A stretch of 64,000 nucleotides of DNA from an uncultured Cytophagales bacterium. Lineage in GTDB: Bacteria; Bacteroidota; Bacteroidia; Cytophagales; Cyclobacteriaceae. The stretch lies in NCBI GenBank assembly GCA_913057175.1, contig CAJXNP010000016.1, forward strand, positions 124,001 through 188,000, in the 5' to 3' direction. Position 1 is the stretch's first letter. Each line of letters opens with the position of its first letter. Of the stretch, positions 3,120 through 61,976 are shown piece by piece. The notes under the pieces are model-generated. The model saw nothing but the letters and a program-made list of their open reading frames with translations, did not search any database and was not told the origin of the DNA. Both the position numbers and the translations under genes were made by a program.

Positions 3120-3194
3120 CTTTTCGTTAGGCGCTTATTGGCGCTTTATCAAACTTACCAATGGCGCGGCCACGCTTTTGGCATAAGATGTTAA

Positions 3195-3226
3195 GTTGGC
3201 AGTTGGCAAAAAGGCAGTTGGCAAAA
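3195..3226. repeat. Left copy of TTGGCAGTTGGCAA-type repeat flanking the four-helix-bundle gene
   Basis: gttggcagttggcaaaaaggcagttggcaaaa; reverse-complement-like copy at 3698-3732. Confidence 0.75.
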
Positions 3227-3257
3227 ATTTCAATAGATAAACTTGCACCTACATTAA

Positions 3258-3632
3258 CTAACTTCTGGGCATATACTTTTCAGGGTTTTCAATCATGTGG
3301 TTCAACATTCGTCCCACTTCTTCTGATTTTTCAAGAATACCCTTGTATTCTTCCTTAGTGATATATTTACATTCCAATGCGAAATCCAGCGATACTTGTG
3401 TTTCTGTATTCTCCATATCAGAGTCACTTATTTTACTGGAAAAATGCTTTGGATATTGTCTTTTCCGATAACCCTCTCCAATAGCCCGGCAAGCAGCACG
3501 AGACGATCTTCTAATTTGATCCGTTAATTCATATCTTTCATCTTTGGGAAAGCTTTTTGTTATTTCAAAAATTTGCATTGCCAGGTCAAATGCTTTTTGA
3601 TAAACCGTTAAATTCCTAAAACTCCCTGTCAT
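3258..3632 (-). CDS. Four helix bundle protein (23S rRNA intervening-sequence protein family)
   Basis: 124 aa, FRNLTVYQKAFDLAMQIFEITKSFPKDERYELTDQIRRSSRAACRAIGEGYRKR is characteristic of the family. Confidence 0.9.
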   Translation of the reverse strand: MTGSFRNLTVYQKAFDLAMQIFEITKSFPKDERYELTDQIRRSSRAACRAIGEGYRKRQYPKHFSSKISDSDMENTETQVSLDFALECKYITKEEYKGILEKSEEVGRMLNHMIENPEKYMPRS

Positions 3633-3697
3633 AGTGTTACATTTATTCTGATATTAATATGTGTAGTGATAAATTGATGATTTTAATTAATTTGTCA

Positions 3698-3732
3698 TTT
3701 TGCCAACTGTCAATTGCTCTTTGCCAACTCTC
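3698..3732. repeat. Right (inverted) copy of the TTGGCAGTTGGCAA-type repeat
   Basis: ttttgccaactgtcaattgctctttgccaactctc, inverted relative to 3195-3226. Confidence 0.7.
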
Positions 3733-3852: not shown

Positions 3853-5004
3853 TCAGGCATATTGCTGTACATCTGTTTTTGAAATTTTTTGACCGCTCAT
3901 TATTACGAGCCTTTCAGCTACATTTCTCAACTCACGGATATTCCCTGTCCATTCCATTTTCTTTAATTCATCTATGGCGGACTTATCAATATCCTTTTTT
4001 TTGTTGCCATATTCTGTAGCAATTTCCTCTAGAAATTTATCAACCAAAAGAGGTATGTCGTCTGTTCGTTCTCGAAGTGGGGGTACGTGGATGAGAATGA
4101 CACCTATCCGATGGTATAGGTCTTCCCTGAATTTTTCATTCTCTATTTCTTTCTTAAGGTCTTTATTTGTAGCAGCAATTACACGAACATTGACTTTGAT
4201 ATCCTTATCGCCACCAACTCGTGTTATTTTATTTTCCTGAAGAGCTCGTAAAACCTTTGCCTGTGCGGAGAGGCTCATATCACCTACTTCATCCAGAAAC
4301 AAAGTTCCTTCATTAGCCTGTTCGAACTTTCCGATTCGCTGTTTGATTGCTGAAGTAAACGATCCTTTTTCATGCCCAAATAGTTCACTTTCTATCAATT
4401 CCGAAGGGATGGCGGCACAATTAACTTCCACCAGTGGACTGCCATTTCTATTGCTAAGTTGATGGATCCATCTGGCCACCAGCTCTTTACCAGTTCCGTT
4501 TTCGCCTGTTATTAATACACGAGCATCAGTGGGGGCTACTTTTTCAATGGTTTCTTTTACTTTTTGAATACCATCAGATTCGCCTACGATATCAAAAGTT
4601 TTAGAAATTTTCTTCTTCAACGATTTGGTTTCTGTGACGAGATGGGACCTTTCCTGTGCGTTCCTGATCGTGATAAGTAACCTGTTGAGATCCGGTGGTT
4701 TTGGTATAAAATCATAAGCTCCTTTCTTAACAGCATCAACTGCTGTTTCAATTGATCCATGAGCAGAGATCATCACAAAAGGCGTATCAATGCCTTCGGA
4801 TTGTGCTTTTTCTAATACCTCGATGCCATTTAACTTAGGCATTTTAACATCGCAAAGGATAAGGTCATAATTTCCTGAGCTTAATTTTTTGAATCCTTCT
4901 TCGCCATCTTTCGCTTCCTCTATTTCATACTTTTCGTATTCGAGTATTTCTCTTAACGTGGAGCGGATGCTCTGCTCATCATCAATAATTAGAATTTTTG
5001 CCAT
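3853..5004 (-). CDS. Sigma-54-dependent response regulator (NtrC/AtoC type), receiver + AAA+ domain
   Basis: REC domain (ILIIDDEQSIRSTLREIL), GENGTGKELVARWIH Walker A, ELFGHEKGSFTSA (GAFTGA-like loop), FLDEVGDMS Walker B; ends shortly after the AAA+ C-subdomain. Confidence 0.92.
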   Translation of the reverse strand: MAKILIIDDEQSIRSTLREILEYEKYEIEEAKDGEEGFKKLSSGNYDLILCDVKMPKLNGIEVLEKAQSEGIDTPFVMISAHGSIETAVDAVKKGAYDFIPKPPDLNRLLITIRNAQERSHLVTETKSLKKKISKTFDIVGESDGIQKVKETIEKVAPTDARVLITGENGTGKELVARWIHQLSNRNGSPLVEVNCAAIPSELIESELFGHEKGSFTSAIKQRIGKFEQANEGTLFLDEVGDMSLSAQAKVLRALQENKITRVGGDKDIKVNVRVIAATNKDLKKEIENEKFREDLYHRIGVILIHVPPLRERTDDIPLLVDKFLEEIATEYGNKKKDIDKSAIDELKKMEWTGNIRELRNVAERLVIMSGQKISKTDVQQYA

Positions 5005-5048
5005 AGTTTTAATATAAAAAAAATGCAGACCATAAGCCGGATTCTGTA

Positions 5049-5064
5049 TCCGCCAGCTGGCGGA
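5049..5064. repeat. Palindrome TCCGCCAGCTGGCGGA (copy 1, inside rnpB)
   Basis: Perfect 16-bp palindrome, identical to 5269-5284. Confidence 0.95.
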
Positions 5065-5268
5065 CTCTTATCATTTATCTAGCCCTGATGTCACCACCAG
5101 GATCGATCGGTCTACCCATTCTACTCTAAAAATTGAGCGGGCAACTCTTTTTTCCCAATAAGAATCGGGAAAAAGCAGAACCTATTTGACCTTTCAACCC
5201 GCAAGGTTTGCCAAGCATCCCGGTTCACACCGGGACCGGTGAGCTCTTACCTCACCATTTCACCCTTA

Positions 5269-5284
5269 TCCGCCAGCTGGCGGA
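5269..5284. repeat. Palindrome TCCGCCAGCTGGCGGA (copy 2, inside rnpB)
   Basis: Perfect 16-bp palindrome, identical to 5049-5064. Confidence 0.95.
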
Positions 5285-5491
5285 CGGTATATTTTCTGTT
5301 GCACTTTCTGTTCCCTACCAGTTGGCAGAGACCTTCCTGTTAAGAAGTACGGTGCCCTGTGTTGTCCGGACTTTCCTCTCTTATCCTGCTTTTAAACAAA
5401 ATAAGAGCGATAAGAAAGTCTGCATTTATTTTTGAATAATTGTAAATCCAATTAACGTTGTTGAGACGATTCTGTTTCTATAGATAAAAGG

Positions 5492-13982: not shown

Positions 13983-14070
13983 TAGAAACTTAATATAAGG
14001 TTGATTGGGTATACTGTTCAAATTTTGAATTGAATAATATCATTATTCTCCTCTTGAGAGTAGATTCAAT

Positions 14071-14150
14071 GCTATTAAGTTAAGACAATACTATGTCCCT
14101 CTCTCGGAGAGGGTTAGGGAGAGGTCGTAAAACCCCCTTAACTTAATAGC
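14071..14150. repeat. Intergenic inverted-repeat element with internal CCCTCTCTCGGAGAGGGTTAGGGAGAGG
   Basis: Outer perfect 14-bp arms gctattaagttaag (14071-14084) / cttaacttaatagc (14137-14150); inner ccctctctcggagaggg hairpin. Confidence 0.8.
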
Positions 14151-14313
14151 AATGAGAGGAGATTCAGAGGTGTGTTAATTAAAAACTACATAACTCAAGT
14201 CAAAATCTCGTCATTTTACACAAAACTTAGATTTATATCTTAGTCAATTGCTACAGCTCTTTTTACTAAATAGGTGAAAACTTCTATTTTTACATTTAAA
14301 CTGCGCACACCAA

Positions 14314-61795: not shown

Positions 61796-61872
61796 ATTGG
61801 CAGTTGGCAATACCGACACATATTTGCCAACTGCTCTTCGCCAATGGCATAGCCATGCCTTCGGCATTGCCA
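61796..61872. repeat. Dispersed TTGGCAGTTGGCAA / TTGCCAACTGC repeat related to that at 3.16-3.73 kb
   Basis: attggcagttggcaa...tttgccaactgctcttcgccaatggcatagccatgccttcggcattgcc; the right part resembles ccaatggcgcggccacgcttttggcat at about 3160-3185. Confidence 0.75.
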
Positions 61873-61976
61873 ATTTATCGATAGTTTCTTAGTAAATTTA
61901 TCTGGGTAAGCCCCAAAAGAAAATCATCATGCAACCTTTACTGCAAACATATCATCTGTAAATAAAAACATTCAGT

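Follow-up and report, generated by a model that had tools for sequence, protein, structure and literature searches.

Genes of the 23S rRNA intervening-sequence protein family and mirrored heptamer repeats look like one class of small mobile elements

Genes of the 23S rRNA intervening-sequence protein (IVP) family and intergenic heptamer repeats look like parts of one overlooked class of small mobile elements. We consider it reasonably probable that an IVP gene and the mirrored heptamer arrays on its two sides (the arms) constitute a small mobile unit, in which the protein recognises its own arms and the catalysis is borrowed. To our knowledge, free-standing IVP genes (also annotated as "four helix bundle" or "S23") have no assigned function, and we know of no established origin of intergenic heptamer repeats. 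The two are joined here in one architecture across several phyla, which makes both testable.

An IVP gene bracketed by inverted heptamer arrays

The window, that is, the whole 64,000-nt stretch of DNA that was analysed, carries an IVP gene of 124 aa (3258..3632, minus strand), which is the sole gene between two arms on the minus strand. The 5′ arm, upstream in the direction of the gene, is a GTTGGCA-type heptamer array (3698..3732), and the 3′ arm downstream of the gene is the inverted GTTGGCA array (3195..3226). The sequence at 3195-3226 is GTTGGCAGTTGGCAAAAAGGCAGTTGGCAAAA and consists, on the plus strand, of two GTTGGCA heptamers followed by AAAA, GGCA and a further GTTGGCA; the sequence at 3698-3732 is TTTTGCCAACTGTCAATTGCTCTTTGCCAACTCTC, which reads GAGAGTTGGCAAAGAGCAATTGACAGTTGGCAAAA on the minus strand. 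Of the inverted pairs in the region, the one formed by the segments 3196-3216 and 3693-3713 ranked first, with 86% complementarity over 21 nt. The arms also paired in the predicted RNA fold (z = -2.35), with a stem that brackets the gene.

The original prediction that GTTGGCAGTTGGCAAAAAGGCAGTTGGCAAAA and an inverted counterpart at 3698-3732 bracket one small IVP-family gene was confirmed by the sequence and by Pfam. The protein matched the Pfam family 23S_rRNA_IVP (PF05635; E value, 4.5e-31; 107.6 bits with a cut-off of 33.8), bAvd (PF22296; E value, 4.1e-12, above the cut-off), and the NCBIfam model TIGR02436, "four helix bundle protein" (92.7 bits with a cut-off of 24). The Avd equivalog model NF033474 gave 41.8 bits, below its cut-off of 80. 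The AlphaFold2 model was a confident four-helix bundle (pLDDT 95.2), and its nearest folds in the PDB were 2GSC (TM 0.85) and 2RLD, followed by Avd (4DWL). The structures 2GSC and 2RLD, which are also sequence matches of the protein, each contain five chains.

The upstream neighbour of the unit is a co-directional sigma-54 response regulator gene (3853..5004, minus strand). The 5′ arm starts approximately 120 nt past the stop codon of this gene, which is farther than usual for IVP units. The unit sits between protein-coding genes and outside any 23S rRNA gene; a search of the window against Rfam returned a single match, to RNase P RNA, and no 23S rRNA around the unit. This RNase P RNA (RF00010, 260 bits) lies at 5017-5427 on the minus strand, upstream of the response regulator. 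No Y1/HUH transposase gene was found inside the unit, the IVP gene being its one gene.

The CCAATGGCGCGGCCACGCTTTTGGCAT sequence that had been pointed out to the left of the unit is present at 3158-3184, but it looks like an element separate from the unit. It belongs to a palindromic element, CCAATGGCRYRGCCAYGCYTTYGGCAT, that adjoins both GTTGGCA sites of the window (3158-3184 and 61841-61873). In 864 kb of the genome, this palindrome had one close relative, from 61841 onward, and two further matches that were weak.

Mirrored arms as a common feature of IVP loci

The genome of the window contains 14 IVP genes, most of which carry mirrored short tandem arrays on both flanks, with a motif that varies by locus. 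The arm motifs were GGCAGTA (L026), GTTGGCA (L027, which is the window unit, and L032), a GGGAAGC-like motif (L028), GTTGCCA/GTTACCA (L034 and L036) and TTTCTTG/TACTGG (L031). The original prediction described a TTGGCAGTTGGCA repeat; the arms are not one fixed repeat of this kind but degenerate heptamer arrays whose motif is locus- or clade-specific. A further IVP unit of this genome (L038, C7:278737-279030) is flanked on both sides by tRNA-like sequence.

To score arms, the upstream flank was aligned locally with the downstream flank in reverse complement. Lenient scoring was uninformative, with mismatched pairs also scoring high, and the results given here come from stricter scoring with shifted controls. 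Inverted arms were called at 63% of 144 non-redundant IVP loci with a score threshold of at least 11, on which these calls depend, compared to 1–2% when the flanks were shifted by 250–750 nt; some of the 37% of loci below the threshold were visibly degenerate. In direct orientation, a score of at least 11 was reached at 15% of the same 144 loci. Among the loci of the window's genome and its relatives, 27 of 43 reached p ≤ 0.05 against mismatched pairs, compared to 0–2 of 42 with outward-shifted flanks. The mean score of matched arms at 80 loci from Bacteroidota and other groups was 14.6, versus 7.5–7.7 in shifted flanks.

The arms have a period of seven. Their self-identity reached 0.595 at a lag of 7 and 0.56 at a lag of 14 but stayed at 0.26–0.29 for the remaining lags between 3 and 13. 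They are thus degenerate tandem heptamers with period 7 and no other up to 13, as in repeats of the STRR type. The 5′ arm was low in C (8%). There was weak support for the idea that the heptamers supply stop codons in all three frames (p = 0.03 for stop density; p = 0.11 for frames stopped).

A co-directional gene was located upstream of the IVP gene at 132 of 145 loci. Among the 84 co-directional cases that were scored, 79 had a 5′ arm that began no more than 30 nt from the upstream stop codon, in many cases overlapping it. At the other end, the distance from the 3′ arm to the next co-directional start codon was at most 30 nt in 65 of 79. Therefore, the unit fills the junction of co-transcribed genes.

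This near-exclusive placement at operon junctions, together with the ability of the arms to pair in RNA, would also be expected of a passive cassette, in which replication slippage gives rise to the heptamer arrays, the arrays serve as insulators or RNA stems separating co-transcribed genes, the IVP gene merely travels along, and horizontal transfer with homologous recombination exchanges the junctions. According to one report, heptamers of Xanthomonas and Nostoc vary strongly in copy number and are located near the upstream ORF (PMC4692102), which fits the same explanation. However, slippage alone would not give both arms one locus-specific motif in inverted orientation, and we regard the passive cassette as unlikely, also in view of the junction and multicopy evidence given below.

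Heptamer copies and other repeats in the genome of the window

In the window alone, the GTTGGCA 13-mer had 4 matches versus 1.7 expected, which was not significant. Across the whole genome, the double heptamer GTTGGCAGTTGGCA with at most one mismatch had 25 matches versus 0 for the reversed pattern, and part of these one-mismatch matches resemble chance matches in coding sequence. A general co-occurrence of the repeat with IVP genes, one of the points raised by the original prediction, was not borne out, as most genuine GTTGGCA copies stood without an IVP gene. The copies L004, L006, L022 and L024 were compact hairpins, and others were single arms. One gene-less GTTGGCA hairpin lies in the window itself (61796..61844), with arms at 61796-61809 and 61823-61844, and is probably a non-autonomous relative of the window unit.

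A de novo hairpin census of 864 kb of this genome detected 75 inverted pairs, compared to 21 in shuffled sequences. Array hairpins are not dense in this genome, because most of the 75 pairs had no heptamer arrays. Other repeats were seen as well. Another palindrome of approximately 90 nt (TCAATGCTATTAAGTTAAG...) occurred at 14066-14155 of the window and at L147:3848-3937, and a repeated hairpin type, AAATTTTGACTTGAATT, was present at L147:5748, L164:10776 and L166:15444.

Phylogenetic breadth and CRISPR-associated copies

A scan of genome contigs identified armed IVP loci in Flavobacterium, Chryseobacterium, Pedobacter, Sphingobacterium, Pontibacter, Adhaeribacter and others. Armed loci were also found in metagenome-assembled genomes (MAGs) labelled Desulfobacteraceae, Syntrophobacterales, Betaproteobacteria and Pontiellaceae, labels behind which contamination is possible. 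IVP genes of cyanobacterial plasmids had arms of the classic heptamer-repeat type, with the motifs GGGAGTA in Nostoc edaphicum, GGGAACA in Nostoc C052, TTAGCTT in Pseudanabaena, GGTGACA in Anabaena 90 and GGTGTAG in Calothrix. The matched arm scores of the cyanobacterial loci were 31, 8, 22, 15, 24, 24, 26, 9, 29 and 12, versus a mean of 8.9 for mismatched pairs. In G074, near-identical (91–97%) TTGACA-type arrays and longer repeated blocks were observed in successive small-gene gaps (L310 and L311).

On cyanobacterial plasmids, IVP units lie between cas6 and cas4 of CRISPR loci (L264 and L266), and in Anabaena 90, cas1d is annotated next to cas4 at the IVP-bearing CRISPR locus. Caution is needed where function is assigned by association, as IVP genes in operons, for example at the cas6-cas4 position of cyanobacterial plasmids, seem to be passengers and not parts of the pathway. 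A survey of CRISPR-linked genes lists a 23S rRNA IVP (PMC10910872), perhaps due to insertions of this cas6-cas4 type.

Turnover at orthologous junctions

Orthologous junctions were compared at 30 thiolase loci (species) in one genus of the window's family, the gene searched being found in 61 of 63 genomes; the classes given below were assigned by reading the printed sequences. Two junctions of a fatty-acid operon were considered. The junction between FadB and thiolase contained an IVP unit at 18 of the 30 loci, a gene-less hairpin at 8 and a short remnant at 3, and one locus was without that side. At the junction between thiolase and acyl-CoA dehydrogenase, the counts were 11 IVP units, 13 gene-less hairpins, 3 unclear remnants and 3 loci with no array, where the junction measured 36 nt (L124), 49 nt (L132) and 87 nt (L133). 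At L120 and L131, a right arm left over from another family lay beyond the unit.

The same site can hold different contents in close relatives. The flanks of L106–L109 and L111 were 90–97% identical up to the stop codon, yet different IVP units or hairpins occupied the site, and the IVP units of species with flanks of this identity did not align. Between L107 and L108, the unit was identical at 523 of 524 positions compared to 92% identity of the thiolase ends, and thus the tract of recent common source is approximately the size of the unit. Some of the junction replacements could have come from homologous recombination with imported alleles, and recombination through conserved flanking genes would swap junction alleles under the passive-cassette explanation as well. 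The L107/L108 tract argues against it, being unit-sized, with the nearest flank mismatches only 16 nt away on the left and 66 nt away on the right.

Empty and filled sites were also compared on Nostoc plasmids, at the junction between TraM and a hypothetical protein. The junction is filled in C052 (496 nt) and N. edaphicum (489 nt). Two plasmids from strain C057, with flanks approximately 94% identical to those of C052, have an empty junction of 52 nt, as does UHCC 0926 with 51 nt, and ATCC 53789 has a gene-less relic (260 nt). The insertion replaced a spacer of approximately 28–40 nt, with its left boundary inside the stop codon (TAA to TAG), and no target-site duplication was detected in this comparison of empty and filled sites. 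The cas6-cas4 junction of Pseudanabaena CCNP1313 is filled, and that of Pseudanabaena ABRG5-3 consists of 36 nt with a mini-array of another motif. Separately, the TraM junction of one Nostoc plasmid locus (L304) carried a different gene-less insert of approximately 290 nt, which has arrays of the TTCAAAA type and may show a 4-bp duplication, GTCA; a shorter insert related to it was present at L306, also from a Nostoc plasmid.

Unit-free orthologous sites, the sign of mobility that had been proposed for the window locus, were therefore found at other loci, namely, the Nostoc TraM and the thiolase–acyl-CoA dehydrogenase junctions. The original view of repeats and gene as one mobilisable unit is likewise supported mostly by loci outside the window, through presence, absence and replacement at junctions, through unit-sized identity (523/524) beside 92% identical flanks, and through gene-less derivatives.

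A multicopy family in a Desulfobacteraceae MAG

The MAG G103, labelled Desulfobacteraceae, contained 25 IVP matches, several of them broken. Related copies have sharp common ends (GGATCATCTCC... / ...GGGAGAAGAACC) in differing, unrelated AT-rich flanks. These ends, GGATCATCTCC...ATTAGTTGG and, inverted, GGTTCTTCTCCCAATTAGTTGG, lie outside GGGTCAA-type heptamer arrays. One copy of 87 nt kept both ends without the gene, and its halves had 40 matches genome-wide. That the copies of this family end sharply within unrelated flanks is a further point against the passive cassette.

One copy (L317) had an 8-bp direct repeat, TTCATTTA, at both ends (8/8, read by eye). The direct repeats of four other copies matched at 7, 7, 6 and 4 of 8 positions, and 17% of mismatched pairs also reached 7, so target-site duplication in G103 is merely suggestive. 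GG...CC ends with 8-bp AT-rich duplications are reminiscent of IS1595-type elements. At the IVP units outside G103, no target-site duplication was seen, and no constant terminal sequence was found beyond the heptamer arms, which are inverted but motif-specific.

Covariation of arm motif and protein clade

Protein identity and arm similarity were correlated across 56 elements (Mantel rho = 0.28, p = 0.0005). The correlation held for pairs below 60% protein identity (rho = 0.17, p = 0.001) and faded for pairs below 50% (p = 0.085), indicating that common descent accounts for part of it. In the clade of the window protein, which includes members from its own genome and from the other genus, the arm consensus was GRCARTW throughout.

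The motif of a unit was also reflected in the repeats of its genome. Genomes with GACAGTT-type units at the FadB-thiolase junction were richer in GACAGTT repeats (excess of 30, 21, 16 and 16; p = 0.0015), and genomes with GGCAGTA-type IVP were likewise enriched in GGCAGTA repeats (p = 0.0019); in both tests, the IVP types were taken from one junction only and phylogeny was ignored. Every IVP protein gains a predicted target motif adjoining its gene.

Proposed mechanism

We infer from these patterns a mechanism of arm recognition, action in trans, borrowed catalysis and read-through expression. The element would be approximately 0.45–0.55 kb long, lie between co-directional genes and start at or just past the stop codon of the upstream gene, from which it is probably expressed by read-through. 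The four-helix-bundle protein, which has the fold of the 23S rRNA IVS protein and of Avd, would recognise the heptamer arms of its own family, either as DNA ends or as the RNA stem formed by them. Through such recognition, the protein may help its own unit to spread and, acting in trans, also gene-less hairpins that share the motif. Another enzyme would have to cut and join the strands, because the IVP protein matches no catalytic family.

One candidate for the partner is a host reverse transcriptase that copies the unit RNA, with the IVP protein acting as an Avd-like partner as in diversity-generating retroelements. The bAvd match of the window protein, the rank of Avd 4DWL directly after the IVP structures among its nearest folds, the co-direction of units with the upstream gene and the arms that bracket the unit RNA are all consistent with such retromobility. 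However, no more than 22 of the 63 genomes from the studied genus had an RVT_1 domain, and several with 8–10 IVP genes had none (G063, G056, G039, G017 and G049). Reverse transcriptase as an obligatory partner is rejected for this genus by its absence from 41 of the 63 genomes, and we consider retromobility improbable.

Another candidate is a RAYT-like or IS200/IS605-like Y1/HUH transposase that moves the hairpins in a REPIN-like manner, with the IVP protein as an accessory. The REPIN-RAYT arrangement similarly combines hairpins, a gene linked to them and derivatives without the gene, and Y1_Tnp was present in 54 of the 63 genomes. As an obligatory partner, this enzyme is weakened by IVP-rich genomes in which Y1_Tnp was not found, namely G056 (9 IVP genes), G045 (5) and G053 (3). 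Moreover, the arms are heptamer arrays in which no REP-type tag was seen, and the G103 ends are terminal inverted repeats accompanied by direct repeats that suggest a DDE-type enzyme. This explanation appears highly improbable. From the absences of RVT_1 and Y1_Tnp, neither enzyme is required in the studied genus, and recognition of the arms by the IVP protein with catalysis from another enzyme remains our preferred reading. An anti-phage defence system was also considered and was rejected, as no PADLOC family matched at an E value of 0.01.

A more far-reaching version of the preferred reading is possible, and we put it forward tentatively. The units may form a separate, transposase-less mobile class, in which a pentameric Avd-like protein recognises the heptamer arms and protein and arms co-diversify. 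The heptamer repeats of cyanobacteria, Xanthomonas and Bacteroidota would then be largely arms, hairpin derivatives and relics, and the rRNA IVS would be a special case that landed in 23S rRNA.

Comparison with known systems

Cyanobacterial heptamers (STRR) have been known for decades. Two reports describe TAACTGA repeats of Beggiatoaceae, cyanobacteria and Bacteroidetes, for which no mechanism of spread was found (PMC4679880), and GGGNATC repeats of Xanthomonas and Nostoc located near the upstream ORF (PMC4692102). Like the STRR heptamers, the arms are degenerate intergenic heptamer arrays near the upstream stop codon, and the arms at cyanobacterial IVP loci (GGGAGTA, GGGAACA, TTAGCTT and GGTGACA) are of STRR type. 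Unlike the arms, STRR heptamers are described as of unknown origin, and the passages searched connect them neither with an IVP gene nor with paired inverted arrays around one (PMC4679880; PMC4692102). A search of the literature other than preprints and most subscription papers returned no published link between IVP genes and STRR-type heptamer repeats.

The 23S rRNA IVS of Coxiella burnetii with its IVP/S23p gene was proposed to be a selfish or mobile element (PMC4990558). The rRNA IVS and the present units each carry one IVP-family gene between complementary termini, and the long RNA stem that such termini can form is predicted for the units as well. The units, by contrast, lie between protein-coding genes, have arms of period 7 with a family-specific motif and commonly occur as gene-less copies.

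REPIN/RAYT systems are comparable in that they consist of small palindromic elements, a single-copy gene thought to spread them and many gene-less copies, but RAYTs are Y1/HUH transposases, a domain missing from the IVP protein, and the arms do not consist of REP sequences. With Avd of diversity-generating retroelements, the units share a related four-helix-bundle protein, although the window protein falls under the NCBI Avd cut-off (41.8 versus 80) and reverse transcriptase is missing from many host genomes. The G103 family resembles MITEs and other non-autonomous transposons in its terminal inverted repeats, its gene-less deletion copies and its insertion at AT-rich targets, with suggestive target duplications of 8 bp. 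Outside G103, the units showed no constant ends beyond the heptamer arms, and no target duplication was seen.
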